A stretch of 64,000 nt of DNA from Ulota crispa (taxonomy: Eukaryota > Streptophyta > Bryopsida > Orthotrichales > Orthotrichaceae). The notes beneath the pieces were generated by a model. It saw only the letters and a list, made by a program, of their open reading frames with translations. It did not search any database and had not been told where the DNA came from. Below, in pieces: positions 1,553 to 62,419 of the stretch. The stretch covers positions 1,550,001 to 1,614,000 of the forward strand of contig OY987250.1 in NCBI GenBank assembly GCA_963920765.1, given 5' to 3'. A program made the position numbers and the translations under genes. Every line of letters starts with the position of its first letter. The first letter of the stretch is position 1.

Positions 1553-1676
1553 CAGACTTTTTTTTCAAATCCCTTGAGCTTTTGTTTCTCACTTGCCTCG
1601 GGAAGGGGGGTCTTGCGAAGCTCGATTTCCACAAGGGCAGTGCAAAACTAGGGTTTTGAAGAAGAGGCCTTGGACG

Positions 1677-2747
1677 ATGGTCGTGGATGCTCTCCACGAC
1701 GATTTCGACTCCGATGTCGAGGATGACGACGAGGACAAGGGAGACGACAATGGAGAATTACAGTCAGGGTTCAAGGCTATGGACATTACAGGATCACACA
1801 ACTCGGAAGAAGAAACTCTCAACCCCGGTGGCGAGGCATCTCTCGCGGACGCAACCCTATCTCGGATCCAAGACTTGGACTCCGGGAAGAGCAGTCTGAA
1901 GAAGAAAAAGAAGAAGAAGAAGAAGAAGAAGCAGAAGCGGAAGGGCGAGTGGAACCAGGGGAACGAGGGAGATGCAGCACCGAACCGACGCAGACAGCCT
2001 GAGAGCGTTGAGCAGTTTGTGGTGCACACCTGCAGACGCATCGGCGAAACGAAGTATCCCTTGTTCCGGGAGGCCGTGGACAGGATTGGCATCGACGCCG
2101 TGAAGGCGCTTTTGGATCAAGTCGACGCGGTTGAAAACTGTGGAGGTCAAATGACAGCTGACGGACTTCGTCGCCGTTCTGCAGGCGGGGTGTTGTGGAT
2201 CTTGCTTCGAGATCACGTCGGTCCTGAATTGTACAAGGAAATCATGAAAGACGGGAACCGGAAACACATCGAGCAGCAGAAGGCGAAGTTGAAAGAGAGG
2301 GAGAACGAGAGAGGGAACGAGAGAGGGCACGGGAAACGGCAACATGACGAACGAGATGATGAGCGGCAGAGTGGAAAGCGACGTAGAACCAGTATGGACG
2401 TCGACGATCCTCATGCGCGATCAGTTTCTCGAGAGAGACTACTGCGGAGAACGAGCTTGAGAGACGAAGTTGACAATGTGCGTGCACCTGCTGCGTTGCA
2501 GAATGCGTGGATTCAAGGGCTCAAGCGGCATGGCGCGTTAAACCCTAAACCCTTGGAGGAGAAAGCTTCGAACCCTAATCCTAATCCTAACCCTAAAGGC
2601 ATCCACAGACCTGTTTCCGAACGGGTCAGGATGACTGTGAGCTACGGCGACCTTGAAATTGCCACTGGAGCTGAAGAGGAAGGTTTTAAGGGTCTTTTGT
2701 CTCAAGAGGTTGAGGAGATGAAGGAGGAAGGAGAAATCGCTGATTAA
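1677..2747 (+). CDS. PHAX: PHAX-like phosphorylated adaptor of snRNA export
   Basis: Predicted 356-residue nuclear protein. Residues about 113-195 form the PHAX RNA-binding (RNA_GG_bind) domain, recognisable from VENCGGQMTADGLRRRSAGG followed by VLWILL. In animals the same domain carries the invariant RRR-x-PGG core and contacts capped snRNA for CRM1-dependent export; the plant role is inferred by homology. The N-terminus is acidic (DSDVEDDDED), then comes a pure lysine run (residues 75-85) that could serve as a nuclear localisation signal. An Arg/Glu-rich charged stretch and two KR-rich clusters follow the domain, and the acidic C-terminus ends EEGEIAD. The frame has no intron. I prefer the ATG at 1677 because MVVDALHDDF begins the acidic region; an in-frame ATG at 1593 would add 28 unconserved-looking residues. 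Neighbour 4937-10566 is convergent. Confidence 0.85.
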   Translation: MVVDALHDDFDSDVEDDDEDKGDDNGELQSGFKAMDITGSHNSEEETLNPGGEASLADATLSRIQDLDSGKSSLKKKKKKKKKKKQKRKGEWNQGNEGDAAPNRRRQPESVEQFVVHTCRRIGETKYPLFREAVDRIGIDAVKALLDQVDAVENCGGQMTADGLRRRSAGGVLWILLRDHVGPELYKEIMKDGNRKHIEQQKAKLKERENERGNERGHGKRQHDERDDERQSGKRRRTSMDVDDPHARSVSRERLLRRTSLRDEVDNVRAPAALQNAWIQGLKRHGALNPKPLEEKASNPNPNPNPKGIHRPVSERVRMTVSYGDLEIATGAEEEGFKGLLSQEVEEMKEEGEIAD

Positions 2748-4936: not shown

Positions 4937-7900
4937 TCACTTGGAGTATGGAGAGTAGTGTACAGAGGCTGCAGGGAAGGTTTTGCTGGAGTTAGACCTG
5001 GAATGCAAAGGTCGAGGAGCAACGTCGCAACAGGAGCTCTCAAATGGGAGAAATGAGTAAGGTTTCAACCCCCCCGCCTTGACGACGTCCACGATGGTTA
5101 TGTCCTCTTCGATTGAACCCCAGTGGCAAAACTCAGACATGCGAGGCTTGGCTTCGGTGTCTGTTGCTTTTGCTGTTGCTGTAACAGCTTTTGTTGTTGT
5201 TGCTGCTTTTGTTGGTGTTGTTGTTGTTAATGCTGAGGAGGAGAGCTCGCCGGGAGGTCGGAGGCGGAGTTGGAGTTGGAGAGATTCGTCGGGCGAGGAG
5301 GACGATGGGTCTGGCCAGGGTTGGTGGAAGTTGGCTGACAGTTTGAATAAGTTGCTGGGGATTGGTTCGTTGTTGATGTTGTTGTTGTTGGTGTTGTCCA
5401 CGTCGGATACTCCGGGGTTCTGGACTATGACTAGCATGGGTTTGTTCCGGTCTCCTGTTCTTGAAATTGGAGTTGGCTGCGTGTACAGGCCAATGAAACA
5501 GTCAGATTCTAGGGATAACAAATTCCACTTTTGATAATAAAATCAATTTTTGATGCTTGCGATTGGAGGTAGATCTTATACAGAATCAACATGTTTCTTC
5601 TTTTTCAAGTCTCCATGTGACTTATGATGGTAAATGACTAAGCCAACGCTCATATTTGAATTCATGACACCACCTCGTTAGTGCGGCTTTTGGTTCAACT
5701 ATGTAAACCTCATAGAATCAGATAATAAATTCCATCCTTGGTGCCTTGTTAAGAAACTTTGTGAAGGAAGAATTGGGTACATCCCAAGACTACCTTAGTG
5801 CCTTTGTTAAGAAGCAGATCCTATAACAAACCCACATGTTCCTTCTTTACAAAATTTTCAAGTCTCCATGTGACAACAAGATCATTTGATTTGACTATGA
5901 TTGGGTGTATTATAATGATAAACACGTTCCCAACACTTTAGATACCACCTCTTGGTCAGGGCATTTTTTTCTGGCGACACCGACTTTTTTAGCCCAGTCA
6001 AAGGTTGTCCCTCCAAATTTTGATGACCCTAATTGGGCTAAAAAAGTTGATGTCGCCGAAAACAAATGCCTTGTTCTTGGTGTGACAAAGCACACTAACA
6101 TCATGTTCAATAAATTGGGAAAACACCAAGTTTCAAGGATGGAAGTTCAATGTATATGTGTACGTGTTCTAAAAATGATTCAGGTTGATTTATGGTTGCA
6201 GTAGTTTCCTTTTTTTTCACTTGTGTATTTTTTTATGTCCTCTTTCTAAGCTTCGCCTTTTGGCTACCACGTGCATCAAAATGCATTAGTACTTTTCTCT
6301 TTTATGAGTCATAAGTCCCAAAATCTAGATATTGTTCTGATTCATTGAATAGGGCAGGCTAAATGATGAACTACAAAACCCTTTTTCCCAGTAAACTTAG
6401 ACTCTTTTCATAGACAATGATGGGCAGGTAGGATGAGGAAACATATACGTGGTTTAGCCTTAAATTCATATCTTTTTAATTAGGACTAGTGCTGTAAGTG
6501 GAGGCATTCAAAAAGGAATGGGTAAAGTGCAACCCCTTTGCACAGAAAATTCTTTGAGAGCTCACCACTCCAATGTGCCATTCCTTGTAATCCAACTTGT
6601 TGAATTGCCTCTCATTCATTTCCTGCAATAAATCCAAGCCCCGTTTATATACAATATTAGGCCAAAGTATCAATTCTTGAAGTAGTGTACATTCTCATTA
6701 GCATGCGTCATGAATGTTAACAACAAGGACAGTTCAGAGAGGTGCAATCTATGGATCTTGCAATCTATGAAGAAAAGTGCTAAAAGATGGACACAAACTC
6801 TAGAAGAAACTATTGTTAAAATAATATAAAAAAGATACAAGAAAAAGATGATATTTGAGAATGAAAAAACGGGCTTGGTTCTTCAAAAGAGCTCACCACA
6901 CTGTAAATTGGGGCCAAGGTTCGCTGTCCAGAGGAATTTGAGGTTGGCATGACATTAAAAAAAGGAGTTTGTTCTCTGGATCTGAAGGTCCACCTGTCAT
7001 AATACACGCATTTGAACACGTCATTCGCTACGTTTACATTAATTTACTTCAGTAGTATGGCTCTTACACAAACAAGATCACAACAATCCTTTCAGATTTG
7101 GATAAACAAAAGTAGTACTCACAATAAAGTAGACAATTTCAGGGACTTTTGAACATTGTCAAAAAAAGAAGACGTCCTTGTGATATACGAGGAATATGGG
7201 GTAAGATTTCATGGAGAATGTTTTTTTCATTCGAAAATCTGAGTAAAATTAGGTTAATCTCACTTGGAGGAGAAGTCTTAAAATCATAAGAAAGGGGAAT
7301 GCTATATTGTGAACACGGATCCGTGAGCCTGGATTTTTTGTCAAAATATTTAATTTCACCTATAACCGTGTATGTAGGGCCTTATAATTGAGCATTTTAA
7401 ACTTTTATCTATTGAATAACTTGCCATTTTCTAAATTTCTTTGTTGATTTTAAGCTCAAAATTGGTTCCTTGACTGTGGCTCATCGTTTTAAGCTTACAA
7501 AATACCATTGTACTTATAAGAAAGGCCTTACCCAATGAAGAAGAAGATGGTGACCTCAGTAATCTCTCGCACTAGCAAGCGCACCCAATACTCATTCACC
7601 ACGCTCTCTGCTTGAGCGTGCATCTGCTTTAACCCAAATAAACAAGGATTTGTTGGTAAGCTTTTGAGTAGCATACTAAAATATATTGTACGGCAAGTAA
7701 AGCATGACGTGGAGACAAATATTGGCAAATTATCTTAAACAAATATCTAGTAACGGATTCTGTGTATATTTAGTGCAGAGAAATCCATATATACTCGCTT
7801 GCTTAGAGTACCCAACTTCAAGACAAATCAACAAGACTCCACGTACGAGAATTTCAGCGACCACCATCGCCAACATCGCTCCTTGAAACTTTCTGCACAG

Positions 7901-10566
7901 ATGGTTCACAAAAAATCACTAAATACCAGCATCAACAATTAGTCCTCACAGTAGAAGCCGAATGTAAGGAAGAGGCTATTATTTTGCCAAGCAATTTAAC
8001 CAGGGGTGTGGATTTGGGGAATTTGTTTATAAATGTGGTGGAGAGAGAGTCAAACCTTCAAAAACAAGAGCCTTTGATCCAAAAAAACTCATATTTTTAC
8101 GAAGGGATTTTCATGTGTGGGGAGTTTAGCATTGCAAAATGTATAGCAAGCATTCAGGAAGCATGACTAGTCACCAACCTTGTGGCAAGTGTGAAAAACA
8201 AAAAGGTGCGGTGGGTTGAGAGAAGGGGCAATTAATTACCTGAACATGGTGTACTTGGTGTGAACGGCGTTCTGCATCATGTGAACGCCCTCTGCTTGTA
8301 TTTGCTGCAGCTGCTCCCTTAGCAATGACAAGTTACGCGCAATGTGTGCCATAATCACATACAGAAGCACCGCATAAATGAATATTATGAGAACCTGCAC
8401 AAAAAAGCACACAAAGAGCAATCTCAGGCTAAATGTCTATTGCCTTGACATGGAAACAAGGGAAAATTTGATGGATATCTATTGCCTTTGCATAAAAAAC
8501 GAGTGAAAATTTGATGGATACCCCTGAAGTTTGCACTATTTGTAAAGATGCCCCTGGTTGGTTTTTCAGAAATTGCACAAATACTCTCAAACCATAACTT
8601 TCAAGCCTTTGTTCGGTTGTGCATGCCACTTCCTTCTCCCTTTGTACACACCACTTCCTTCTTTCCCTTCCCATTCTGTTGCACTTCCTGCTTCAACGTT
8701 GTTCATGAAGGAAGTATAGTGGTGTGCACAATAGAACAAATGCTTGAACGTTATGGTCCGAGGTATTTGTGCAACTTCTGAAAGACCTGTACAAATATTG
8801 CAAACTTTAAGGGTATCCATCAATTTTCTCCTAAAAAAATGAGAGTTTTCTGTGATTGCTGCTTCAGTAGTGATGTACAACCACCCACTTTTCTTTTCAT
8901 AGGTATTGTAGGCAAAGAATCTCTCTCAAAAACCGCACTTCTACACATGTCAAAAACCAAGAGCATGTGTATAAATATTGCAAACTTTAGGCATCCATCA
9001 AGTTTTCCTGGGGGTTTTCTATGATCTCTTCATTAGTGATATAAAACCACCCACTTTTCATAGGAATTGCAGCCAAAGAATCTCTCTCAAAAACCGCACT
9101 TCTACACATGTCAAAATGCACAAAAACCATGCAGAAATGTGATAAAGTGTAGGTGCAAAAAGAGCAACCTTGGGCTGAATGTCTACTGCCTTTGCATAAA
9201 AACAATGAGGGGTTTTCTATGATCTCTTCAATAGTTATATACAACCACCCACTATTCACGATATTGTAGAGGCAAAGAACCTCTCTCAAAAACCGCACTT
9301 CTACATATGTCAAAATGCACAAAAATGTGATAAAAAATGTGATAGAAATGTGCTAAAAGTGTGATAGAAATGTGATGAGAAGGGGAGGGGGGTAGGGGAG
9401 GGCTTACAGCAAATTGAGGGACAGCAGCCTTGTAGCCAGTGAGAGTCAAGTACAAGAGCGAGGTGAGGCCAGCAACGCTGCGTCTCTCGGTCAACGAGAG
9501 CTGCTCATGCATGATGCAATATCCATACGAGATCAACAAGAAGGTCACGAAGCACGCCGTCTCAAAAAAGATGCGCGACACAAACACCCCAAACGCTACC
9601 CAAAATGAACACGTCTTCAAGTGCAAGCAACAGTACCTGCCACCACCACATCACACCACCCCCCATCCATGCCCAACATCTCTCAAACACCACACACACA
9701 CAAAACCACACATAACACCACTGTCACCACACACAAAACCAACGAACAAACACAAAACCATCCAAAACCAGTGCACAAAACACAAAACCAGACACACAAT
9801 ATTCATTAATTTGTGAAAAAGCCTTTCCGATGCAAAATTGGTTTTGGGATACTGAATTTTGCATTTGTGAGAATATTTTGGTGATTTAAAGTGATTTTTT
9901 TTTAATCCTCCAAGATATTTCATTATTGATGTAAGGTCTTGAAGAAATCATCATAAATATCACTCTAAATAACCAAAAACCTCTTTAAAAACATAAAATC
10001 CAAAAGTCCCAAAATTACATTTTTTCCCAAATTAACAAATATTGCACTAAGTGCACAAAAGACAAAACCAATGCACAAAACCATCCCAAACCAGTGCACA
10101 AAACACGCAGTAGCTGGTGGCAAAGGCAAGGGCAGTAGCAGAGACGGGGGGCAAGACCTTCGTACCAGAAGACGAAAGAAAGGCCCATAACCAAGCTCTT
10201 CATCGCAGGAATGACAGTTAACACCCACTGCAAATTGCTCGTCTGCCATGGACACAACAATCACAACCAATGCCATGCTTTTTTATTAAAAAAATCCTTA
10301 CTTTTCAAACGAGCTGGAGAGAATTGACCTGCAAAAGGTTTTGTGTAAGAGGAGGAGGAGGACGAGGAGTGTAGTACCTGCCATCGCCGCTTGGACCAAG
10401 TATTAGCAGTCCACACAACCACCAGGAGCATCCACAGCATTGCGAGCCCAAAGAAAAGGTCCGGCAACGGACGATACGTGTGGTCCCAGTCATCCCCAGC
10501 GAGACTGGAGTAGCGCGAGGGTGGAACGCTGTTAATATTCACTTGCGCGACAGCAATGGTGTCCAT
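4937..10566 (-). CDS. Multi-pass membrane protein, plant candidate 7TM (GPCR-like) type; nine exons
   Basis: Coding exons read on the minus strand: 10566-10378, 10242-10166, 9636-9408, 8394-8240, 7892-7847, 7623-7532, 6993-6897, 6622-6566, 5476-4937. Every junction has GT-AG and agreeing phase; the sum is 1482 nt, 493 residues. The N-terminus is short (about 36 residues, RPLPDLFFGL before TM1). Hydrophobic segments fall near 37-55, 70-92, 97-129 (possibly two), 141-158, 166-184, 221-232 and 249-265. The helix-to-helix region holds SLTERRSVAGL and LSLLREQLQQIQAEGVHMMQ followed by NAVHTKYTMF. After the last helix WTFRSREQ leads into a cytosolic tail with EWHIGV joined to PTPISRTGDRNKPMLVIVQN. 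Residues about 330-430 are Asn/Ser/Thr/Ala-rich and low complexity. The pattern fits plant proteins listed as candidate GPCRs (Arabidopsis CAND1 type, from memory); the ligand and function are unknown. An in-frame ATG at 10590 would add eight residues. Introns carry several MITEs. Confidence 0.72.
7286..7525. mobile_element. 220-bp MITE with 10-bp target duplication beside a splice donor
   Basis: Element 7296-7515 is flanked by a perfect direct repeat ATAAGAAAGG (7286-7295 and 7516-7525). Its ends are imperfect inverted repeats: GAATGCTATATTGTGAAC on the left, and on the right the reverse complement reads CAATGGTATTTTGTAAGC. A 9-10 bp duplication suggests a Mutator-like origin. A related copy is at 43001-43233. 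The right-hand duplication abuts the GTAAGG donor (7531-7526 on the minus strand) of exon six of the membrane-protein gene. Confidence 0.75.
8498..8832. mobile_element. MITE, ATACCCCTGAAGTTTGC family, in intron 3 of the 7TM gene
   Basis: The left arm starts AAAATTTGATGGATACCCC and the right arm ends GGGTATCCATCAATTTTCTC, so the element is palindromic over long arms. The centre reads GTTGTTCATGAAGGAAGTAT. Related copies are at 44318-44640, 44868-45193 and, split by an insertion, 22906-25458. A duplicated left end (8453-8497) suggests a local tandem event. Confidence 0.7.
8845..9330. repeat. Three diverged tandem copies of a ~115-bp unit in an intron
   Basis: Each copy contains CAACCACCCACTTTTC-like DNA, then GGCAAAGAATCTCTCTCAA and ACCGCACTTCTACACATGTC. 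Copies start near 8875, 9040 and 9240. Between the second and third lies GAGCAACCTTGGGCTGAATG, which resembles DNA just upstream of exon four (near 8415-8445), so intron-edge DNA was copied as well. All of it is inside the intron between exons three and four of the 7TM gene. Confidence 0.6.
9637..10120. repeat. CA-rich intron with internally repeated segment
   Basis: The intron between exons two and three (9637-10165) is rich in CACAAAACCA. A ~50-bp block (AACCATCCAAAACCAGTGCA then CAAAACAC) near 9758-9783 recurs near 10077-10107. The open frames here are repeat-derived. Confidence 0.5.
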
Positions 10567-12694: not shown

Positions 12695-13660
12695 TAATCT
12701 TAACCCTAAGGGATTGAATTTTGTTTTTATGGCAACAAAGCAATTTTGGGCAGCTCACTACACCTGGAGTTTTCATTTCTTTTTTGTGAAATTTTTACAC
12801 ATGATGTGTCCCAAGAATAACTTTAAGGTCTAGTACTTTTCATAATTTTTGACTACAAGAGTCAAAAGTTATTGCATGATATGTAGTTTTCTTTGAACTT
12901 TGGGCAACCCGAGTAGCTATTAAAAATTTATTTTCTTAAGAAATAGAAATTTGAAACTAGTTTTCTGGATTTACGTGTGTGTTGAATGCTTTGAATCATT
13001 CCATTTTGTTTAATGAGATGAGAGTTATGAAGAGTTTTAGTTTGCATGCAGTATTGGAATTTCTCCTCTAACAAAACTTGAAGTCTTGTATTTAAAGAAA
13101 TTTTTCGATATTTTGGAAAAATAAGTAAAATCATAAGATGTATTTTGTTTGTTACAACATTACAATCGTTGGAAATGACATTTTTCATTTCAATAATTAA
13201 ATTCTTAACAATTTCGTGTTTTGAATTGTTCTCTACTTCATTTTACTTACTATTTCTTTCCCATGTGTTGTACAATTCCAAATGATTTGAAAACTTTGAA
13301 GATAGTATCCAACTTGCACTAAAGAATGAATCCAAAGAGTTACAACCATTTTAGAAAACAACTCATACAAATATGACCTTGTGAGATGCAGCTGCCTAGG
13401 TTTTTGCAAGGGGACAAAAAATGACTTTTTGTCAATTTAAACTCAAATATCTTATAATCTACAAGGTGAATTTTCTTGAATTTGTGTTTACATCTTTTGA
13501 AAATAGTGTGCTACAAGATCTTACGGTTACATAGGTTCAAAAATATGTTTTTTCCTAAAATTTGGTACTTGTGCTAGAAATGTCAATTTTGTATTGGTTT
13601 TAGTAAAAAACTAGTCAAAAACCTTTAGTGGTTAAAGCTAGTTTAAAAAAATTTGTAATG
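12695..13660. mobile_element. Diverged partial copy of the fold-back family
   Basis: It starts with TTAACCCTAAGGG, then carries GAATCATTCCATTTTG, GAGATGAGAGTTATGAAGAG and CCCATGTGTTGTACAATTCC, all of which match parts of the arms of the large inverted repeats at 16269-16989 and 19418-21240. No matching second end was found, so the right boundary is a guess. Confidence 0.45.
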
Positions 13661-15659: not shown

Positions 15660-16085
15660 AATTATATAGGGAAATATTAAAGCGACATCCTAAATTGCTA
15701 ACGAGACTCCCTCTCTAAGCATGAATTTTGATAATTTAGTGCTATTTTTAATTTATTAAATGGTCCATCATTCATTCAATCACAACATCATTATCTCCTT
15801 GAAAGAAAACATGACAAATAGAAAAAAAAAACTAAAATATTATTGCACCAATATTATTTTTTGATATATTTTTGCTTTAAGTGACTCAAAAGTCCTATAT
15901 TTTTAGTTTGAAATTTAAGCACACCTATTTTTTTTAGTATAGCCTTAGAATGATAAAGATGAAATATATCTTTTGATCCAAATAAAAAATTTAGCAAAAT
16001 CAGCATTAAAAATCAAATTTTCATGCTCAGAGGGGGTGTCCCGTTAGCAATTTAGGGTGTTGCTGTAGCGATTCCCAATTATACA
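15660..16085. mobile_element. 408-bp MULE-like MITE with 9-bp target duplication
   Basis: Element 15669-16076 has inverted repeats of about 60 bp: left CATCCTAAATTGCTAACGAG, and the reverse complement of the right end contains CACCCTAAATTGCTAACGGG. Both ends are GGGAA. The flanks are AATTATATA and AATTATACA (one mismatch). The 9-bp duplication with long TIRs fits a non-autonomous Mutator-like element. The interior is AT-rich and non-coding. Confidence 0.75.
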
Positions 16086-16268: not shown

Positions 16269-16989
16269 TTAACCCCTAAATGCCCAAGTGACCCCTTGGA
16301 GGCCAAATGGGGTTTTGGGCCTTACAACTAAACTATTTTGTGTGATTTTTTGAAACTTTTATGGAAGATGGGGAATTCAAAGATTTGCGTGGGGCATCTA
16401 ATTTTTCCTTCATTCCAACATTTATTGGAGAAATTAGAAATGAATTTATGGAAAATAAAGGAGGACAAGCAGCCCAAAACTTCTTCAAAATTTTCATTTT
16501 TTAAAAATGAAAATATAAAATAGGTTCTTTAGACTTATATATACGTGGGGTGGTTTTGAATCATTCAATTTTGATAAGTGAGATGAAAGTTATGAGAAGT
16601 TTTAGATTGTGGGTAGGTCTAGTTTCTCTTAGACCTACCTGCAAACTAAAACTTCTAATAACTTTCATCTCATCTATCAAAATTGAATGATTCAAAACCA
16701 CCCCACGTATATATAAGTCTAAAGAACCTATTTCATATTTTCATTTTCTAAAAATGAAAAATTTGAAGAAGTTTTTGGGCTGCCTGCCCTCCTTTATTTT
16801 CCATAAATTCATTTCTAATTTCTTCAATAAATGTTGGAATGAAGGAAAAATTAGATGCCCCACGCAAATCTTTGAATTCCCCATCTTCCATAAAAGTTTC
16901 AAAAAATCACACAAAGTAGTTTAGCTGTAAGGCCCAAAACCCCACTTGGCTCTCAAGGGGCCACTTGGGTCTTTAGGGTTGAGGGGATA
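16269..16989. mobile_element. Fold-back element, ~355-bp arms, ~8-nt loop
   Basis: The left arm (about 16269-16621) and right arm (about 16630-16989) are near-identical in reverse complement over their full length, with the loop around TTTCTC at 16623-16628. The ends read TTAACCCCTAAATGCCC and, on the right, the reverse complement of GGGTCTTTAGGGTTGAGGGG. A transcript would fold into a very long double-stranded RNA. Weaker pairing (ACTAGT, GGTCTT) continues outwards to about 16217 and 17030. No coding frame of note. Confidence 0.85.
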
Positions 16990-19417: not shown

Positions 19418-21240
19418 TTAACCCCATCGAGGGCTAAGTGGGGTTTTGGGCATGTAGTTACAGCTAAACTATTTGTGTGATGTTTTGAAACTTTTTTGAA
19501 GGTAGGGAAGTTAAAGATTTGTGAGGGCATCTAATTCGTTCTTCATTTCAACATTTATTGAAGAAGTTATGCATGAATTTCTGAAAAACAAGGGAGGGTG
19601 AGCAATCTGGAAGCCAAAAAACTTTTTAAAAATTTGTATTTTTTAAAAAGAAATTTAAATTTATTTTTTTAGATTTATATATATGTGGGAAGTTTTGAAT
19701 TATTCAATTTTGATCAATGAGTGAGAAGTTTTAGTTTGCAGGTAGGTATGGAACTTCCAAACCTCCATTCCTTTTGTCCCTTATAAAATTTGGTGCTATA
19801 ACAATTTTCTTGGCTTTTTTTTCCCAAGTTGTAATAGATTAAGATTTCTTGGTTTTTATGTATTGGATTAAAATAATTCATATTTCTCAATTTTACATAA
19901 ATCCTCCAATTTTGCCTACTGTATATGCAAATTCCATGGCCTTACGGCATTGCCAAATTTTACAAAGTATGATTCACACCTCCAATTCATTTGAAAATTC
20001 TCCCACACTTACCTAACTTGGTTTTCTACATGGAAAAAATAAACCTCAACTTTGCGTAGAGCAATTTTTTTGATATAGGAAAGGTCAAAGGCTTCTGAAA
20101 ATTTTGGGCAATTTTTGCACTTTAGATGTCAATATCTCACTCCTCTACATTTGGAATGAGCTAATTCTTTTTTCACAAGTACCTCCTATAGTCTAGAATA
20201 AGATCCTATGGTTGGATTTCCAAAAACAAACTTTTTTCCTACTTTTCTATTCATTCCCCCAAAAGTGGCAGTTTTTAGCAACTTTCATAGAAAAAAAAGG
20301 CTTGGGCCTTTAGGGGTTTACCCCTAATGGACCAAGCTGTTTTTTTTGTGAAAAACACACAAAACTGCCACTTTTGAGGAAGCAAGTACAATGGTAAGGA
20401 AAAATGTTTTTTACAAGAATTCAACTGTAAAATTTTACAATAGACTACAAGAAGTACACGTGGTAAAAAAAACAGCTCAGTCTACACAAAAATGAATGAG
20501 ATATTTACATCTAAATTGGAGAAAAAAGTTTCTTTTGCTGCTCTCTAGAAATTTCAGAAGCCTTTGACCACTCTTAGAGCAAAAAAATTACTCTACACAA
20601 AGCTAAGGTTTAATTTTCCCATGTAGGAGACCAAATTAGGTATGTGTGGGAGAAATTTCAAATCAATTGGAACTATACAACACATGGGAAAAAATAGTAA
20701 GTAAAAAGAACTAGAGAACAAGTCATAACACTAAACTGTTAAGAATTTCATTATTAAAACAAAAAATTAAAAACCCAGCGGTTATAATGTTGTGATAAAC
20801 ATTCTACATCATGTGGTTTTGTTTTTTTTTCCAAAATAATGGAAATTGAGTAAAATAAAGGACTTCAAAGTTTATTTTAGAGTAGAGAATCTAGAACTGC
20901 TCGTAAACAAAAACTCCTCATAACTTTCATTTTATTGATCAAAATTGAATGATTCAAAGCTCCCCACGTCTATATAAGTCTAAAGAACCTATTTCAGATT
21001 TTTATTTGAAAAAAATGGAGATTTTAAAGAAGTGTTTGGCTACCCGGGAAGTAGCATTTTCTAGATTTTCATGCATAATTTCTTCAATAAATGTCAAAAT
21101 GAAGAAAAAATTACATGCCCACATAGATCTTTGAATTCCTCACCTTCAATAAAAGTTTTAGAAAATCACGCAAAGAGCCATAGGTACATGCCCAAAATCT
21201 CATTTGTCCCCCAAATAGACAATGGTCTTTTAGGGGTTAA
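19418..21240. mobile_element. 1.8-kb giant inverted repeat (fold-back family)
   Basis: The ends are TTAACCCC (19418) and GGGGTTAA (21240). The outer arms match each other and the 16.3-kb hairpin (AACATTTATTGAAGAAGTTA left; ATAATTTCTTCAATAAATGT right). Inner arms also pair, for example near 20005-20065 (CTAACTTGGTTTTCTACATG) with 20590-20640, and CAAAGGCTTCTGAAATTT with AAATTTCAGAAGCCTTTG. The centre is TTAGGGGTTTACCCCTAA at about 20310. The arms are more diverged than in the 16.3-kb copy, so this copy is older. No protein-coding frame is visible. Confidence 0.75.
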
Positions 21241-22690: not shown

Positions 22691-23077
22691 TTTAGTGTAC
22701 CTATAGTAGGTTAGGCAACCGAACGGGGCTGAATATAGAACATGCTGTAAGGACACGTGGACTTAATTGGGGAGTGAGTCCATAGGAGGGCATTATTTGT
22801 TTGGCAGTGGCAACGAAATTATTGTGGGCTTACGTGTCAGTCAGTGGTGTTAGTCTCCCCACCCATGGACCCAATCGGCTTCCTCCTTGCACTCAACGTT
22901 TGAAACAAGGGAAATTATTATGATACCCTTGAAGTTTGTCATATTTGTACAGATGTGCAGAAATTGCACAAATATCCTTGGATCATAATTCAGACGTTTG
23001 TTTTATTGTGCAAATTACTTCTTTCTCCCTTGGGTGCATTACGTTTCATTTTTGTTTGATTGTACTTCTTGCTTTAA

Positions 23078-25308
23078 CCCTTAAACAACCACAAGGCACC
23101 ACCTGCTGTAGAGTAGTTTATAATTGCTCACGGCACCAAGGCGGTGACTTAGGGTGTTCGATCTGAAATCAAATTGGGTCAATGAGCAAGTTATCTTTTG
23201 GCGCTCCAATTGCAGCTGTTTTGAGTCAAATCCATCAAAAGGTTGGAGAAATCACAAATCTGTTGAGGCTCATACGGAGAGGGCGGGTCACTCGACGGAG
23301 AGTCGGTTTTTGACTTTGGGTCTTGCCACGATGCCTACCAGGTTGGATTTTTGCAATCAGAATTGGCGAGGAACCTCGATTTCTGTGAAGGATAGCGTTT
23401 TCAGAAGGTTGAGGGTGAGAGAACGTGGATATGGTGCCTGCACAAGTCATGAATTCTTGCCAGGCTTACCTTTGAAATAGAGGATCTCAAACGTCGGCTA
23501 GTAGGTTGCTACGACTCCAACGTATTAGCGCGTTTACACAAGTTACAATACCACCTGATTTGGCAGATAGAGCGGTTTGAGGGTCAACGTAGATGGTAAC
23601 TGCATGAAAATCCACATCAACAAAAATGCTTGCCTGCATAACATTGTTAACCTTCACTGGGGGTACCCTTTTATTCCCCACAATATGAGAATCCTAGCGA
23701 ATGACATGAGTTGGCTCTCGCCCTCACCAATTGGCTCTCACGATCTTTAACTAAACTCTCCCGCAAGTATCCGAAGGAGAATATCCTTCCACTTGCTGGG
23801 GGGAGGAATACAGCCGGTTAACAATGTTATGTGATTCACGAGTTTTGGGTACCGCTTGGGTATTGGAGAGTTCTGGCAATTAATTTTTGTAAAAGGTTCT
23901 CAGCAGGGCTTGCAATGGCAACATGGATTGTGGGGAATGGATCGCTGTTTCTGCTCACAATACCTGCTTCAACTCAATTTCATGAAGTTCCATCCAACAG
24001 ATGAGTGGACAGCCGGCGTCATTGGAGGGCTTGGCGATTTGTGTGACTTCCCTCCAGCATTCTGTAACGATATCTTACAAGTTCCCAACAAGATCCAAAT
24101 GTTGCTGGTTTGTTTGATGTGACGTGTCACATTCCTCTTATCCAAACGTGGGGGAGATCGTCGAGAGAATTTTCTGCAATTCTGCTGACTACTAATGTCT
24201 TACAAACCTTACGGCTCCCCTTTCCAGTCAAGAACGTGTTCTTAGCAAAATGGGCAATGAAGTTCTGCGTGTTCTTAGCAAAATGGGCAATGAAGTTCTG
24301 CGTGTTCTTAGCAAAATGGGCAATGAAGTTCTGTGTGTTTTTAGGGGGGGGGGGGGGGGGGTGATTCGACGTGCCACTTGATTTGCTACCATGGCAATAT
24401 ACTCGTAAAATAACTGTCGAAGTTTCCCATGCAATGCTCGTGCGTAGCTGCTAAGGGTCGGTTTACACTTGCAGTTCAATACACTGCTTCGGAAAGGGGT
24501 CATACGGTCTAAGTCGCGGTTGTTTCTGCTCCATGGATTCGTACACGCAGCGCCTTGTTTTCAATATCTTACTGTCCACCGCAACTTCAACTGGTTTGTT
24601 CTACCTTCTACAACGTTCACATAATTTTGTAAAGCAAGATCTTCGAGGGCAGCGAGATACCTCACCTAAGACGCGGAAGTCAGGACATGCGGATCGCCAT
24701 GTTGATCTCAATGACGCGCTAATTTCTAGCCGGCAGGTCCAAGTTCCTGAAGGCCAACATGGAAACTGCCATGGACCAGAACTGATCTTGCTATCGTCGT
24801 GCGAGCAGTGACGTTCCGTTCACACAACCGGTGTAGTTTAGCATTCCCTTTGCGTATGCAAAGTAAGCACCGCATGTCCCTCGAGATTCAACCGGCTATT
24901 CTCCCTCGATACTTGCGGCTGTGATCCTGGGATCGACATTACGAGCACAGCCGCTCCACACTCTCTTCAAGCAACTCACACCAAGAAACCACAAATGTTC
25001 TCCCGCCAGAAAACTGCTCAAACGATGCCAGGAGGGAGCCTCTACGGCCACGTAGAAACCATCGCACCCGACTCTCTTCCGGGTCGTAAAACCGCAAACA
25101 AAATACGTACACCGTATTCCAACACATGTATAAACGATTCTGAAACCCTGTAGAACAATCACATTCAACCTCAAATGATCTCATTTTGTAGGGAAGACTG
25201 CAAATACGAAATCCTCCGAAGCCCAGCCTCAACCGACCAAGGAAACACCTCTGAATACGGAAAAAACACCGTGTATTGGCCAGAAACGCATGTTGTGTCG
25301 TTTAAGGC
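23078..25308. mobile_element. 2.23-kb nested TIR insert with gene-like cargo, TAA target duplication
   Basis: It is flanked by TAA on both sides (23075-23077 and 25309-25311). The short inverted ends are CCCTTAAAC and GTTTAAGGC. A TAA duplication fits PIF/Harbinger-like transposition. The interior is richer in GC than its flanks and holds several open frames (23154-23480, 23856-24122 and 24533-24811 on plus; 24896-25232 in two minus frames), none recognisable as a transposase or a known protein. It also contains the 33-bp triplication at 24235 and an 18-G run. It could be a Pack-type element with captured host DNA, or a decayed transposon. Confidence 0.65.
24235..24333. repeat. Perfect 33-bp triplication
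   Basis: Three identical 33-bp copies begin CGTGTTCTTAGCAAAATGGG at 24235, 24268 and 24301. They lie inside the nested insert. Because 33 is divisible by three, all frames stay open through the block. A run of 18 G residues follows at 24344-24361. Confidence 0.9.
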
Positions 25309-25458
25309 TAACATTGGTCATGAAGGAAGTAGCATGCATATAACAAAACAAATGCTTGAAAATTATGGCCCAAAGATATTTGTGCAATTTCTGAAAAATC
25401 AAGGATATCTATACAAATATGGCAAATTTCAAGGGTATTTATAAATTTTTCCCTTGAA

Positions 25459-39380: not shown

Positions 39381-40738
39381 TTAACCCCAAAAGGCCAAAG
39401 GGTCCATTCAACAGCCACTTGAGAACTTGGGTAGGGTCATATGGAGTTAGTTTTTATTAGATGTTCTCAAAATTGTTACACACGGTGCAAATATGTATCC
39501 TCCAAGTAGAAATATAAATTTTTCCCCAATTGAATGCTCAATTCAAAAGTCATGCTATCCAAAAGAATTTAAGCAGCTTGGGCAACCTAGGCATCTTTGG
39601 AGAATCTTATGCTAAAACTCTTATCAACTTTTGAAATATTGGCAAGTATGTAACTAAAAATACATGGTGTACAATTGTCAAATAAATAAATAAATTGAGG
39701 TCTCACATCACATTCTAATGGGAGTCAAACTTTGTTAACTACGTTTAGGCAGATTCAAGAAAAAATGTTTTCCTCTGACTTCAAGGCCTATTATCTTTCA
39801 ATCTATACACCCAAGGCTCTTGAATTTTTTTCAAACATTCCAAATGTTTCTCTAACTTTTCACCATTCAGATTTCATAAAAGATGTTCTCAGTGCACAAG
39901 AAATCATGAAAGAATGACTACTGTAGACTGAGAGCAGATTTGGCATAAAATAAATCCTCAAAAATTTGCCCAATTATTCCATAAGTTATTCTTCAAAAAT
40001 GCCCGATGTCAAACAAATCAAAAAATTGAAATGCCAAATATTATAAAAGACATTAAGCTTAACTAACAATGGAAGTTTAAGGTTGATTCCAAGAGGGCTC
40101 AATCTATTGCAAATTTTCAACCAAGGGCTAATTTTAAAAGGTGGAAGATGCTTAGAAAAAGGCTTAATTGTACTAGAAAATTTGGCTGAATACCAAATAA
40201 TAACAACTTTTTTTGAAAGTGCCCAATCTTGTTTAATTACAAAAGCAAATGCCAAATTATTTTTTTCTCAAAAAATTATTGATTCGGCACAGACATGTTG
40301 AATCTACTCTCAACCTATAGTAATGTATTGCCAATTTACTTAATCTCTTTATTCTGCATGTCAATTTAGAGGAAGTTAGATTCATAGTTTGCTCCTCAAA
40401 TTTTTCATGAGTGTACCTAACAAGATTCAAATATTAGTCGGAAAAAAACTTTAATTTGTGACGACCAAAAATTTGACTCCAAAGAGGCTCAAAGTCTACT
40501 GACCTATTTGGACAAGGACAAAATTTTTTTTTTTGTAAATTTCAAATGCTATAATCTTTCAATCTATGTGGTTATATGAGCTGAAATTTTTGCAGTCAAT
40601 ACTAAAATATTTTACTGTAACTTTGTACGGTTGAAGTTTCAAAAATAGTTTTCAAGTTAAAAGTCACATCAACATATTGAAAAAATACAAAATTTGGCAG
40701 TTTCTGGTGAAAACACCCCTTGGGCCTTTAGGGGTTAA
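39381..40738. mobile_element. Fold-back family copy 3 (TTAACCCC...GGGGTTAA), hosting a nested MITE
   Basis: The ends are TTAACCCCAAAAGGCCAAAG and CTTGGGCCTTTAGGGGTTAA, about 1.36 kb apart. Both halves carry a TATCTTTCAATCTAT / ATAATCTTTCAATCTATG segment. Without the nested 400-bp MITE it is about 0.95 kb. The arms pair only in part, so it is older than the 16.3-kb copy. Confidence 0.6.
39919..40322. mobile_element. 400-bp MITE with TA target duplication, copy 1
   Basis: Element 39921-40320, flanked by TA on both sides. Left end CTGTAGACTGAGAGCAGATT; right end AATCTACTCTCAACCTATAG. The TA duplication suggests Tc1/mariner relatives. It is near-identical to the copy at 41491-41871, with about 19 extra bases near its right end (GGCACAGACATGTTG). 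It lies inside the fold-back element 39381-40738. Confidence 0.85.
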
Positions 40739-43310: not shown

Positions 43311-46300
43311 TCAGAATTTTACAACTTTAGGGTTCTGTTTCCCAGAATTCACTTTTCTCGAAAGTAACGTCCTTGCTGGGTCCTTGGTATTTGAATTTTG
43401 AATCTTGGGTGCAACAGCTGTACTTCCAGGTTCATCGTCTACTTCTCCATCACTACCGCCTAACGTGTCGGCTTTTCCATCTTCTTGAAAGTCATCTTCT
43501 AAATCATCACCGCTTTTGAATACCGTCCGTTTACCTCCCACACCTGATGATACTTGAGTTGAATCTGTTGCTGCTTGGGATAAATCACAAACACTCATGC
43601 CGTATTAGACCCACTTTGTAAAGATATGCGAGATAAACCTACCAACATCCCAGATTTGGTGACTAAATCCTAAACCCTAAACCTTAAACCTAAACCCACT
43701 ATAAACGTATGAGTTTTCTGTATTTAAGGCGAATTATTGTCCCTGAATAGGACCATCTTAATAGAGAACCAGGTTTCTCAAGAGTAACAAAACCGTTTCA
43801 GAACTTACATATTTTTAGCTTCACCCGAGCATTGCCTGCAAACTTGCCACTATTCTTTTGAGGACAATCTTTAGCAAGGTGTGTAACTGCTTCACAGATT
43901 TTACAGCAGCCTCCCTGTTCAACCACATTGACATTAGTACCTTGTGACAAAGAACCAAAACAAAAACAGTATTTCGGAATAACTCACAAAATAATCCTTT
44001 GACAAAGCGTAAGAAACAAAGAAGTGCATCAGAGAACAATCTGCCAAATAAGCATGTTCATGCAAAAAGGGTGTTTTTGAATTCAGCAAGAAGCTAACCT
44101 TCGGGTAGATGCCGTGTTTGTTCTCAGGGCAGTTCTTGCTAAGATGACCACGTTCTTTGCAAAGGAAACACTCAGCAAATGTTGAACCACCTGCAAACTC
44201 AGACCAAGATAAACGTTATGTACTTCATCAAAAAATAGTTCAGAGACCCTCACTTTCTTACCACAGCTCCTACACCAAGTAACAACCTCAGAAAACGTAC
44301 TATAGATTATAGATTAAAGGGAAAGTTTCATGAATACCCCTGAAGTTTGCAATATTTACATAGGCACCCTTGCTTTTTCAAATTACACAAATCCCCTCGG
44401 ACCAAAATTTCTAGTGTTTGTTTTGTTGTGCATGCCACTTCCCTTCTTCCTTTGTGCGCATATTGCTTCTTTTTTGTTTCATTACATTCCCTTCTACAAC
44501 ATTGGTCATGAAGGAAGTACGAGCACAACAAATAAATGCCTGAAAATTATGATCCAAGGGTATTTGTGTAATTTCTGAAAAAGCAGGTGTATTTATGTAA
44601 ATATTGCAAACTTCAAGGGTATCCATGAAACCTTTCGTAAATTAAACAAAAGGACATCTCTCCCTAACCCTCTCGTAGATGTGCTTACCATCCTTTAAAG
44701 GCTTCGGACACTTATCAAGCGAGTGTCCGAATTCGCCACAATTGTAGCATAACTTAGCATCCCTGCCTTTAAATTCTGAAGGACAATTCTTCAACGTATG
44801 ACCCCACATTCTGCAGCCAAGACACATCTGGAGACATCCATACCAGCAAGTACAATTCATTAGAAACAAGAAAAAATTTCATGGATACCCCTGAAGTTTG
44901 CCATAATTTCATAGATAACCCTGCTTTTTCAGAAATTTCATAAAAATACCTGGCCCTAAAACTTTCAAGTGTTTGTTTTAATGTGCATGCCACTTCCGTT
45001 CTTCCTTTTGTGCGCACACATAACAAGAAAGAAATAGTGTGGGCACAAAGGGAGAAGGAAGTGACATGCACAACAAAACAACCACCTAAACATTTTGGTC
45101 CAAGTGGTATTTCTGAAATTTCTGAAAAAGCAGGGGTATCTATGAAAATATTGCAAACTTCAAGGGTAGGTATCCAGGAAATTTTCCCTAGAAACAATAT
45201 ATTGTTTAGGTTTTACGTAAAAGAGCTGGACCACAAAACAGCCATTATCTCAGATCATGAGAAAGTTTGGAAAGTCCTTTACCTTATGGCGGTCTTTCTC
45301 GCTTTTAGTTGGGCAATGTTTAGCAATGTGATCCTTGGATTTGCAAAGGAAACAGCCCTCGCCAGGTTTCATTCCAGCTTGACGCAGGGGATGTTTGCTG
45401 GCACTTACAACTTTGTTCTTCTTGGCTGAACCATTACCATCACCAGACTCATTTACTCTTTTTTTGACTCCTGTTTTCGTCGCTCCTCCGTTACTGGTTT
45501 CATTCTCGCCGTTGGAGGCAGTGGGAGTGACCGTTATAACACCATCTGCATCAAGCCAATAGAAAATACAGATAGACGAAATCAAAATTTACCACTGTTA
45601 ATCTAAGTTGGGAGGGGGGGGGGGGGGGGGGGGGGGGGGTGAAGTTTCTTTCAAGTAGAGGTACCTAATTGTCCCTGAAAAGCCAAGGGGAGGAGTTCCA
45701 TTTTGAAAATCTGTTCTGGTTTTTGAATTTCCTTCTGTTGAGTTGAGCCTCTCCTCTTGTCACTAAAAAAAAGGGCAAATTTGCATGTAACTAAAATAAG
45801 GGCGTCAAAGTTTTTTTCTAGATGTGACAAATATGGTTGTTACTTTGGGCAAGTTTAGACCAAAGGACAAGACAAGCAAACAATTTCGACTGGACTAGGT
45901 GACGTGGAGGTCCATGTTAGAATCAAGGTGCAGACGTCAACGCATGGATGCAAGGATGCACACATGCCCCAACTCTAATATACTTTTATATACTCTAATA
46001 AAAACCGCCAGCTTCTGCGCCCAAGGTAGACAGTTTAGGGTTGGTCCAAAGTGACAACCATGGTGAATGTATCACCCAAGAGTTCTATCCTCCGATAGAG
46101 TTTCTAACTCTAACGCCCACTAATGCGACACACTGATGTTCTAAAGCCCTCAGACATAGAATTGAGTCAATTTTAGGTCATCTACTAACTATCGCATATA
46201 CTATCCAAATATTTCATTCTCTGATGCGTTATAACCCCTTTCCATTTGCTAACAAAAATACTTAAAATCATACAAATCTAACCTTTCAAGAAATAGTAAA

Positions 46301-57209: not shown

Positions 57210-58141
57210 TTAATCCCTAAATCCTTGGGGCCTTTATTTTGTCAAAAGATACTCAAAATTGCTATTTCTATTGCAAAGAGTAAATTCTTTTGAAAAATTG
57301 GTTTTTTTGCATACCTAATCATAGGATCTTGTACTAGACTAGTATAAGAATGTGGAAACAAAAATTTAAAAACTTTGACCACACGGATTACAAGATACTT
57401 GCATTCAAAGTGCAAAAAATAAACTTTTTTGCACCTTGTATGATTAGACTATTTGACTTTGTGAACTTTTTTAGCTTAAATTTTTTGCACCATAGAGTTT
57501 TGAGGTTTATTTTTTTAAAGTGGGAAATTGAGTTGAGAGTCTTTGGAAAAAAATCAAAACAAAAAATACTTAATTTTCACTCTTAAAAAAAACATTAGAT
57601 AGAAGAAGGTATGAGATTGAACAAAAACTTAAACTGTTAATAACCTTGCAATTGAATTGAAACTCAATAATCCCAATGGTGAGATTGTTTTAGCAAGCAA
57701 ACTTCAACCTTTCTAACAATTTTTTTTGAAAAAATGTTAAAATTGCATTCAAAAATGAAGTTTATAAGTTATTTTTTCAAGAAGATGCTTGAGTTGCCCA
57801 AAAAACAAGATTGTCCATAACTTTCTCATAACTAGTCCAAATGAAATGGATCAAAGCTTCAGATGTAGACAAAACTATAACCTATGACAAAAAAAACAAA
57901 ATTTAAAAAAATTCAAGTTTTTGTAAAAAAATTGCTGCCCAATTTGCATAAATTTTTGCTTATCTAGGCATAACTTTTGCTTTTAGGCATTGATTGGAAT
58001 AAAAATTATATTCCCCAAAAGCTAGTGTGTTTTTCTATCTTCAAAAAAAGTTTCAAAAAATCAAGACAAAAATTGAGGCTGTAGGTACCTGCCCAAAATC
58101 CCATTTGTTCTCCAAGGGGACACTCAGGGATTTAGGGGTTG
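57210..58141. mobile_element. Fold-back family copy 4
   Basis: Left end TTAATCCCTAAATCCTTGGG; right end CCAAGGGGACACTCAGGGAT then TTAGGGGTT. Inside, CTGCCCAAAATCCCATTTGT matches the right arm of the 21.2-kb copy, and TCAAAAAAAGTTTCAAAAAATC the arms of the 16.3-kb copy. The frames inside are not genes. Confidence 0.6.
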
Positions 58142-61081
58142 ATGTTCTAAATTATGCTAATATAACAAATTTGACATTATCATTTTTTAATGGGTGTCCT
58201 ATTTATCTTTTTAATACAAGCCATGAAAATTTCATTCAATTTAATTTTTGTTATTAAAAAAATAGAAAAACTTAATATCAATGAGCTCATTGTTAAAACT
58301 AAATGAATAAATTCTTTATTTAAACTAGTCTGCTTTAGAATAATGATCTTTAAAAAGTACTAATTTGTGTCATCATCAAGTTTTGGTTTTGACAAATGAC
58401 ACTTACCTTATCTTATAATCCAAAACCATCTCCAAACTTTGATATTCATATAAATATGCAAATGTAATATTTCAAAAGTTTCATTTCAATTGCAATAAGT
58501 TTCAATTTAATATTGCAAAGTAAGAAATAAACCATTTCACTAGCACCAAAGTCATACTTTGCTTGTTGTTTGGAGTTCCACTTATGTTTGATTCATTTTG
58601 TCAATTTCTTCTCAAACTCACTTTTCTAGTTTTCAAGTTGCATTTGGTTCAAATATGAAATATAGCATTTATTCATGAGTGGACAAACAAAACTTGAAAC
58701 CTTAGCATTTGACAGAGCACTTGTATGCAGGTTTAAAATGCTCCATATCAACCCCGTGTCTTCTCTCGTGCCCTTGTCTATTGGATTTGTTTTTGAGGAT
58801 TGTGGCGCTCATTCCTATATGTATGTTATTTCGCGGCTTTTCTTTCAAGAGTTTTGTTCATTTTCTAATGTGTTTGAATGTATGTGTTTGCACAGTTTAG
58901 ATTTCGTGCAGTTTTGCGGCCTCAACGAACCTTTCAAGGGTCGTTTACACAACACGGCACCTTCACCACTGGGTGGATGCATGGTCGGCTAGACCAAAAT
59001 GCGTGTTCCATTCAATTTTCAGGAATATGTTTTGATTGCATGACTTATTTCTTATAGGAAAAAGAGCTTGGAAACATCCTAAATTAGTGGATGTATTCTA
59101 TACTTGCTCATAAAAAAAAATGTAATTTATGTTTGTTAAAATTGATAATATAAAAAATAAGGGACTTTTCAATGCATATATTTGGACTGTCCCATTCATA
59201 ACATTCTATGAAAATGATAAACATAATGTATCAAGTTAGCTATAATGCGTACTTAGGGACTACGTATGTGATTTAGCATCTTTTAAGTATTTCAAAAACG
59301 AGTTATAATTTTAGAGAAGTGATATACAATAAAAGCTATGGACTTTTTAGTGCCCAAATTAAGGCTAAATGTTTAGGCAGCAATATCTTAATGATTTTTA
59401 CATTTTTTTAGTTAATTTTTTCACCTTTGCAAAAGCCATCCTAGTGGCTACATGGGCTTGGTCTTTTTTTTAATGCTCATATTTTTATAAAGGAAAACAA
59501 ACACTTTGTGATCCGTACTCGCAAAAATCTCAAAATTATGAACTTTTTATGAGGTTTTATCTGCCATTTTTGGTCCACTCGACCATGCAAATGCTCCACT
59601 CTCAATTCTCAGTCTTTGACGGCGTGTACCCATGGTGACTCAATAAGTCTGCTTAGGTCTGCACCCAGTGCAGCTGCAGACCAGATCACAAAAAAATTAC
59701 GACATGATTGCTACTGCACCCCATAATACCAGTTACAGTATATGTGGAATTCCCGCTGCTTTGGCCGCTTCCTATACTCTTTGAGGTCCGTGATGTCCGG
59801 CTGAAGATCCTCAGACACTGGAATTGCTGTTTCAAGCTTCTTTATGTGGTTCCATAGTTGCTAGAGTTGCTCGTGCTGAGGTCACTCCTGCTCATCGTCT
59901 ACCTTTCCTTTTTCTTTTCTATGAACATCTACATCACCTAGATCAAATAACTAAAAAGGATAAATGCACTCCAAACAAGAAGAAGCAATAGAAGTGCCAT
60001 CTAAGGCTCAATTTTTGATGCACCAATGTTTTAATTTTTCTCAACCTCAACGGTGCTTTCAATTCTTTCAGCTTTGTCAAGATTAAGAAATGATGATCTA
60101 TTTTATGGCATCAACAATTGGCTCTACTTCAACTTTTGTATAGTTTGAAAGTAGATTCAAACTTACACGTGAAAGCCGGTGGGAGTAACGATAGTATATG
60201 GAGCAATTTTGAGATAGTCTCATTTAAAATTGTTTTTTTTTATTACATGCCTATTTGATTACTAACCATTGACCAGTATTTTAAATGCAAAATGTAACTA
60301 CAATATATGCGCAAGGAATACAATATTCTTTTTATCAAAACTACTCATGAATTATATTCTAATGCAACGAGCTTCTTCAACCTTTGATAAAAAAAAAAAA
60401 AAAACTAAAGTTCAATTCCTTGAGCTTCATTCCAAGTAGCAATTTCTTGTTGTTTCACAGCTACTAAGTTTTTCTGTTATACTAAAAATGAGCTTTGTAT
60501 GATTGCAATTATAGATTTGAGTTTAAATGACGGTAACTGGAGTAATAATATTTGAAACAAGTTTGAAGAGATTTTGATTGTAGTTCATTTTTCTTTTTGT
60601 ATATATCTTTGATGACGGACTTTTGTGCCATCAATTTGAATGTTGGACCTACGAACAATATGTACACAAAGAATACATTTTTTCTTCAAAACCATGCAAA
60701 AATTACCTTCAAACTTATGAACTTAAATTTTGAGCGTGACATTGAAGAGCAAAAACCAACATATAATTTTGGACTTCTTATGGTGAGGTGATCTGACATA
60801 TAAGTGTATTAACAAAGCATTTACACGTGATGATTTTGAGTGCTTTTGCCTATAGTAATTACATACGTCTAATTATTGAATTTGAAGCGGATAGAAATTT
60901 GCTACACAACACATCATTATCACGCCAATTGAGAAAGTGGTCTTGTATCACCAAGATTTTTTTTGTTTTCTAAATTGCGCTATTACTCTCTATAGAAATG
61001 CCGTCATTGAGTTTTAGCAAGGGCATTGTGATTTTTCATTTGAGGAATGTACACCTATACTAAAGCATTTAAGGGTTTAGA
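58142..61081. other. AT-rich intergenic DNA
   Basis: Plus frame 58675-58992 (105 residues) overlaps a second frame and has no family match. Around 58700-58990 and 59620-59890 GC rises somewhat, but no exon structure could be built. Nothing else supported. Confidence 0.3.
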
Positions 61082-61753: not shown

Positions 61754-62419
61754 TATTGATTCTTATGCAATCCCAACCAAGCACACCAAATTTTTATTCC
61801 TATAAATCAAAATCCCATTTTTGGTGATTTATTTTGTACAAAATTCATGGTTTTTTATGAAAATTGATTGAAAAAATTGGTGATGAGTTTTTCAGATTTG
61901 ATTGCATGGATATGTAGGAAACATCCATACACATATTTTCCCTTCTAGAAAAGAACCTCCTTAAGTAACAAAATTAAGATCAACAAAGAGTTCAATGTAG
62001 AGTGTAGTAGACCAAAATTTGTAAAGTAGATATTTCTATTTTTTTACTAGTTTTTGGCTAGTAGACATATTGTCATGTTCAAAGGTACAAATTTAGTCAT
62101 AGTATATGAACCAAACAACAAAATATGATTATCAAAAAGAAATATCTATTTTACAAATTTGGGTTCTACCACACCCCACATTGAACTCTTTGTTGATCTT
62201 AATTTTGTTACTTAAGGGAGTTCTTTTTAGAAGAGAAAATGTGCGTATGGATTTTTCCTACATATTCATGCAATCAAATCTCAAAAGTTCATCAAAAATT
62301 TGTTTTAATCAACTTTCTTGTAAAACCATGATTTTTGACAAAAAAACAATTTCCCAGAAATAGAATTTTGGTTTTTGGCAACCAAAATTGGGTATGATTG
62401 ATTGGGATTGCATGAGAAT
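61754..62419. mobile_element. Fold-back element with ~300-bp arms
   Basis: Ends: ATTCTTATGCAATCCCAACC on the left; the reverse complement of the right is ATTCTCATGCAATCCCAATC. The arms pair nearly throughout, for example AACAAAGAGTTCAATGTAGA (61983) with CACATTGAACTCTTTGTTGA (62178), and ATGGATATGTAGGAAACATC with its partner near 62250. The centre is about 62080. This is a different family from the TTAACCCC elements. The plus frame 62106-62363 is within an arm. Confidence 0.8.

Follow-up and report, generated by a model that had tools for sequence, protein, structure and literature searches.

The window considered here is a stretch of 64,000 bases from a 274.8-Mb assembly of 157 contigs, and the genome-wide counts given below refer to that assembly. 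A library of elements taken from elsewhere in the genome marks six elements in this window, and its matches cover 5847 of the 64,000 bases when four weak single-hit stretches are included. All five places named in a preliminary description of this DNA are matched by the library, including one at 12.7 kb that had been listed with doubt. The features are as follows.

12700..13635, minus strand: TTAA MITE-like element of 936 bp, a relative of the 19.4R family in the opposite orientation (library match)
16269..16982, no strand assigned: palindromic TTAA element of 714 bp with two arms of ~350 bp (self-match, fold and genome copies)
19418..20320, minus strand: TTAA element of 903 bp, the left unit of what was reported as a 1.8-kb structure, and a 73% relative of the right unit
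20317..20320, no strand assigned: TTTA, a mutated TTAA common to the two abutting units (sequence at the junction)
20317..21240, plus strand: right unit (19.4R), a 924-bp TTAA element with solitary copies of ~925-935 bp elsewhere in the genome
39381..40738, plus strand: TTAA element of ~960 bp once its insert is subtracted; its ends are TTAACCCCAAAAGG and CCTTTAGGGGTTAA (genome copies)
39926..40320, no strand assigned: insert of ~395 bp in the 39.4-kb element (copy comparison; likeness to a small element by eye)
57210..58142, plus strand: TTAA element of 933 bp, with 39 other scored copies at 89-92% identity

The ends of all six elements resemble TTAA-CCCCTAAAGG...CCTTTAGGGG-TTAA. Sharing of TTAACCCCTAAA-type ends had been proposed previously and is borne out by their enrichment in the window, where 22 matches occur at no more than two mismatches against a shuffle mean of 10.07, a count reached by none of 100 shuffles. 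The 12.7-kb element has diverged ends (TTAACCCTAAGG and TTAACCACTAAAGG), and its positions 289-593 match positions 644-340 of the 19.4-kb right unit (E19R) at 79%. Pairwise comparison also reveals arms common to several members, in keeping with the earlier claim that conservation is not limited to the termini. The same description had seen no transposase in these members; indeed, the six elements contain no stop-to-stop frame of at least 110 aa, and translated piggyBac pieces found no match in the window or in L001-L070.

The 39.4-kb element is interrupted. In 38 of its 39 other scored copies, the sequence runs on directly at query 947/948 without the insert. The insert has inverted ends, CTGTAGACTGAGAGCAGATT and CTATAGGTTGAGAGTAGATT, apparently at a TA, and to the eye it looks like a mariner/Stowaway-like MITE.

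Several other features were observed. Inverted repeats at 44322-45168, 8507-8827 and 22958-25393 have TACCCCTGAAGTTTGCAATATTTACATAG-like sequence in common and form another repeat group. A 389-aa reading frame at 1578-2744 (plus strand) carries a PHAX RNA-binding domain (PF10258, E 1.6e-22). Elsewhere, the LEAFY SAM domain model has six matches in the genome, located at C4:16275377 and five other places: a strong one at E 1.2e-27 and five weaker ones with E values from 7.9e-9 to 1.8e-4. The closest solved structure for this domain is that of Ginkgo LFY (4ude, E 1.3e-23), and its presence marks the host as a plant.

Target site and terminal repeats

The preliminary description reported no clear target duplication and proposed that aligned flanks be used to define one. 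This alignment gave TTAA. In three families, the boundaries of the copies read flank|TTAACCCC...GGGGTTAA|flank, the flanking sequences being unrelated, and the 57.2-kb family, known from the hit table alone, has its limits at query 3-12 and 929-945. Most copies shown carry TTAA at each border. The window-type end pair can be written as TTAACCCC and TTAACCCT, and what had been called TTAACCCC ends combine the duplicated TTAA target with a terminal repeat of CCCC type. The duplication that had been overlooked is this TTAA, which sits inside the supposed ends.

To look for empty sites, the two flanks of each of 75 elements were fused across one TTAA, one of 76 elements having been dropped for too little flank. 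Twelve overlapping or duplicate loci had been removed before these and the pairing, library and end counts were made. The joined flanks gave a spanning hit for 14 of the 75 elements. For six of the 75, the genome has a gap-free empty site that contains TTAA once (L002 at 83% identity, L010 at 86%, L012 at 93%, L049 at 86%, L065 at only 72%, and L056 in 21 subjects at up to 85%), and the other eight of the 14 have no clean single-TTAA site. Two of the six, L049 and L056, had inserted into members of the 39.4 and 19.4R families. A TTAA target duplication for the window families fits these sequences, and a TA duplication within a strict TTAA would leave the same empty site. A long palindrome in the window, at 61759-62419, has arms of 77, 81 and 72 nt, and a relative of it provides the empty site of L012.

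Inverted repeats at 19.4 and 16.3 kb

The family was originally portrayed as ranging from a perfect hairpin to diverged inverted repeats of up to 1.8 kb. The hairpin at 16.3 kb stands as a near-perfect one, but the structure at 19.4 kb resolves into two units, and the members at 39.4 and 57.2 kb carry short terminal repeats rather than long ones. Neither of these last two has a long inverted repeat among the 25 of 28 window inverted-repeat pairs listed, and self-comparison detected only a 41-nt internal palindrome in the 57.2-kb member and no self-hit in the 39.4-kb member.

When 19418-21240 was compared with its own genome, 40 places were scored, comprising the window itself and 39 others. 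All 39 of these match the right part alone, starting at query 772-911 and ending at 1790-1823. Therefore, the right unit is a ~925-bp element by itself, and we rejected the interpretation of 19418-21240 as a single 1.8-kb fold-back. The left unit lies in the opposite orientation to the right unit, and the junction reads ...CCTTTAGGGG-TTTA-CCCCTAATGG..., with one mutated TTAA used by both. Thus, the 1.8-kb 'fold-back' is two ~900-bp elements, oppositely oriented, that share one TTAA-type site.

Junctions with a shared site recur across the genome, with 21 exact occurrences and 767 at no more than two mismatches (control 0). If the ~1.97 million genomic TTAA sites, a number estimated from the window, were hit at random, ~30 exact abutments would be expected, and a special compound mechanism is therefore unnecessary. 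It is very improbable that 19418-21240 is itself a mobile compound unit rather than a pair of chance neighbors. At C5:19469673-19471961, a left-type and a right-type element do follow one another in this order with 125 bp between them, and the coral CMITE-IN elements (PMC2872659) indicate that a new mobile unit can arise when an element inserts into a TTAA. However, the two halves appear as one continuous match in none of the 39 other scored places, and the exact abutments show no excess over those expected from chance targeting.

The only true hairpin among the window members is the 16.3-kb element. Its inverted self-match extends over 706 nt at 92%, its right end has decayed to GGGTTGA, and its computed RNA fold has an energy of -536.8 kcal/mol, whereas 20 shuffles average -156.9. 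Compared separately with 20317-21240, both halves align to its ~360-bp 3' end, at 77-79%, and the hairpin is an inverted duplication of this end, which is present once in 20317-21240. Just before the hairpin, at 15666-16079, lies another inverted repeat with 84-nt arms at 74%.

Copies of this palindrome were compared by using 16 distinct examples, all chosen for closeness to the window copy from 6064 first-look candidates. The arms within a copy are 0.827-0.991 identical (mean 0.899), whereas 480 comparisons between copies gave a mean of 0.844 and a maximum of 0.926. In five of the 16 copies, the within-copy identity (0.929-0.991) exceeds that maximum. Arm-to-arm conversion or repeated formation of the palindrome could explain this likeness, as could closer relatives outside the sample.

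piggyBac elements and their miniature derivatives

The genome also carries piggyBac transposases. A search with the PF13843 (DDE_Tnp_1_7) profile yielded 120 matches, all over the cut-off (best E 1.3e-73), and none in 14 control genomes. Merging four secondary matches leaves 116 piggyBac loci. Most of the listed copies hold in-frame stops. One translated copy matches Trichoplusia ni (T. ni) piggyBac (6x67, E 4.1e-20) and piggyBat (9c0f, E 5.8e-17), and the first two catalytic aspartates align with those of 6x67 (VDE and CDN). The third, which we take to lie in the VDxxDQ motif, is by eye present in L071, L074 and L075 and replaced by N in L073.

Five of the 116 loci (L071-L075) were examined, and two were traced end to end. 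L073 and L074 have a common 3' end ~1.7 kb after the domain, and their 5' ends were located from upstream stretches. The traced elements are ~5.7 kb long with TTAACCCTTTAAGGACC-type ends. One of them, element B on C8, is 5656 bp long; it starts with TTAACCCATTAAGGATC and finishes with the complement of TTGACCCTTTAAGGACC, where a window-type element abuts it. The other, element A on C4, is ~5.7 kb net, and one of its ends has an inner TTAA into which a 909-bp TTAA element has inserted. Within about 1.5-2.4 kb of the domain, no ends were found for L071, L072 and L075; TIR searches likewise located none for L071 and L072, whose elements are longer than the stretches scanned.

L073 (525-884) and L074 (219-601) have a common upstream reading frame, separated from the transposase domain, with the motif NGYI.P.PPPP..Q.FA. 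This frame suggests part of a longer, spliced protein, and the gaps between coding stretches in the examined copies likewise suggest introns.

The TTAACCCTTTAAGGACC end occurs 1665+1684 times in the genome at no more than one mismatch (control 0/2), and the 27-base sequence at the 3' end of the coding elements is present 202+219 = 421 times at no more than three mismatches (control 0/0). This 27-base sequence forms one end of elements of 409-417 and 626-632 bp. The 200 listed places pair into 17 elements: five of 409-417 bp, two of 626-632 bp, seven of 885-915 bp and three others. Three of the 116 transposase loci lie within 10 kb of one of these 200 listed piggyBac-type ends, namely element A itself, one locus whose 3' end is where it should be, and a third, which at 8.5 kb is implausibly far and was not counted.

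A 413-bp member aligns to positions 1-234 (70%) and 5545-5656 (72%) of element B, with the coding middle absent, and in element A parts of both ends are matched by a 632-bp member. All 40 scored places of the 413-bp family (from 768 candidates) are 87-100% identical, and 32 are full length. Members of this family are internally deleted piggyBac elements that multiplied.

The window families begin with CCCCT, or CCCTT in some copies, and the coding elements begin with CCCT, CCCA or CTCT. We compared 14 ends of the 19.4R type with four piggyBac-type ends, two from coding elements and two from deletion derivatives. The majority letters agree at 15 of 17 positions, and none of 100,000 shuffles was as good; when the TTAA is left out, three of 100,000 were. 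Beyond position 17, the agreement is weak (10 of 17, a level that 1399 of 100,000 shuffles reach). Internally, the window families have no homology to the examined piggyBac loci (best E 0.065). A search for a longer member bearing a transposase had been proposed; it led to the ~5.7-kb piggyBac elements with closely similar ends, but no coding element with exactly the window-family ends was found among the five loci examined.

Assignment, abundance and comparison with known systems

The window repeats are very probably non-autonomous piggyBac-type transposons (piggyBac/TTAA MITEs) residing in a plant genome. They had been regarded as a fold-back family with no known home, but TTAA together with a CCCC-type repeat fits the piggyBac/TTAA superfamily, and piggyBac elements are present in the same genome. 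As a result, a previously unplaced repeat group is assigned to a known superfamily, and TTAA targeting explains odd features such as the apparent lack of a target duplication and the 1.8-kb 'fold-backs'. Elements of this kind are already known; it is their scale in a plant and the palindromic subfamily that are notable.

A plausible route to these structures can be outlined. A piggyBac transposase encoded by another element would bind the CCCC(T)-type terminal repeats in trans, cut the elements out, and insert them at TTAA, which would be duplicated on both sides. The transposase that moves the window families by this cut-and-paste process would presumably have a slightly different end preference. 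Two opposite elements sharing one TTAA-type site would produce the long inverted repeat at 19.4 kb, and inverted duplication of one ~360-bp end would produce that at 16.3 kb.

Two other assignments were weighed. Sola3 is, like Kolobok, a superfamily that targets TTAA, and it is most improbable that the elements belong to either one and that the presence of piggyBac is a coincidence. TTAA duplications are produced by Kolobok as well (PMC9587614), and a coding partner with exactly the window ends was not found among the five examined loci. Nevertheless, the same paper gives Kolobok termini as 5'-RR...YY-3', whereas the window elements have 5'-CC...GG-3', and we rejected a Kolobok identity on these tips. 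The 15-of-17 agreement with the genome's own piggyBac ends, and the fact that those piggyBac elements generate miniature derivatives, also count against Kolobok or Sola3.

Even less probable is an identity as MITEs that favor TTAA but duplicate TA (Tc1/mariner, Stowaway-like) or TAA/TTA (Tourist-like). Insertion as T-TA-A with a TA duplication would look like a TTAA duplication both in its letters and in its empty site; moreover, the insert in the 39.4-kb element looks TA-flanked, and such elements probably exist in the genome. But the TTAA seen at both borders of most copies would demand an unusually strict target for TA insertion, and TTAA on the left and right misfits a 3-base TTA or TAA repeat unless a further base is fixed. 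The match between the ends and the genome's piggyBac elements also speaks for piggyBac/TTAA MITEs over either of these types.

The abundance of these elements is considerable. The exact 14-mer TTAACCCCTAAAGG occurs 7719+7692 = 15,411 times genome-wide compared with once for a reversed-pattern control, and a longer form of this end occurs 748+740 times (control 0). Because each element has two ends, 15,411 exact ends correspond to at least ~7,700 elements. Given that 16 of 70 non-anchor ends are exact (16 of 41 without the ends having four mismatches), a rough estimate of the total is 2-3.5x10^4 elements, from a sample of ends that is small and not random. The lengths of 76 paired elements cluster at 721-737 and 912-966 bp.

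Perhaps piggyBac is a leading DNA transposon of a land-plant lineage, with tens of thousands of MITEs, several waves of end types from diverged transposases, and hairpin arms kept alike by conversion or repeated snap-back. This broader proposal is tentative, and we consider it somewhat doubtful. Under it, MITEs would make up roughly one tenth of the genome, taking the window as typical, and hairpin RNA could arise naturally and on a large scale from the long-hairpin subfamily. The 116 transposase loci and the thousands of derived MITEs would offer material for studying the spread and silencing of piggyBac in plants.

In animals, piggyBac serves as a workhorse tool, and native plant piggyBac is thinly documented in the open-licence literature that was searched. 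Among the open-licence papers listed on plant, moss and liverwort piggyBac and on TTAA MITEs, no description of this family was found, and those listed for the terminal sequences, by title, concern other subjects. The fern Ceratopteris has 1230 piggyBac copies amounting to 122 kb, or 0.00% of the assembly (PMC6890710), and piggyBac is counted among seven angiosperm MITE superfamilies in a review (PMC10004981). The plant Tourist and Stowaway MITEs treated in that review are likewise short, gene-less and high in copy number with terminal inverted repeats, but they differ in having TAA/TTA or TA duplications rather than the TTAA that fits the window elements. Kolobok, as described in PMC9587614, resembles the window elements in its duplication and differs from them in its termini.

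Among characterized piggyBac systems, the elements of this genome share with T. ni piggyBac and piggyBat a homologous transposase domain, the TTAA target and C-rich end starts. The examined copies depart from both in their upstream reading frame and suggested introns, and the traced elements, at ~5.7 kb, are larger than T. ni piggyBac (about 2472 bp; PMC10813416). That paper gives a range of 1.23-9.51 kb for animal piggyBac elements and names CCCTT as their most conserved tip.

A close parallel is provided by the coral CMITEs (Wang et al. 2010; PMC2872659). There, piggyBac/TTAA MITEs are defined by terminal inverted repeats of 12-19 bp with a CC[C/T]T tip. Coral CMITEs and the elements reported here have in common a TTAA duplication, C-rich terminal repeats, no coding capacity and homogeneous lengths, as well as internal parts conserved between families, piggyBac in the same genome, and nested or abutting TTAA insertions. 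In contrast, the window families have a plant host, begin with CCCC rather than CC[C/T]T, and measure 714-960 bp, above the <500 bp given in that paper as usual for MITEs. They also differ in possessing a long palindromic subfamily and thousands of exact ends.
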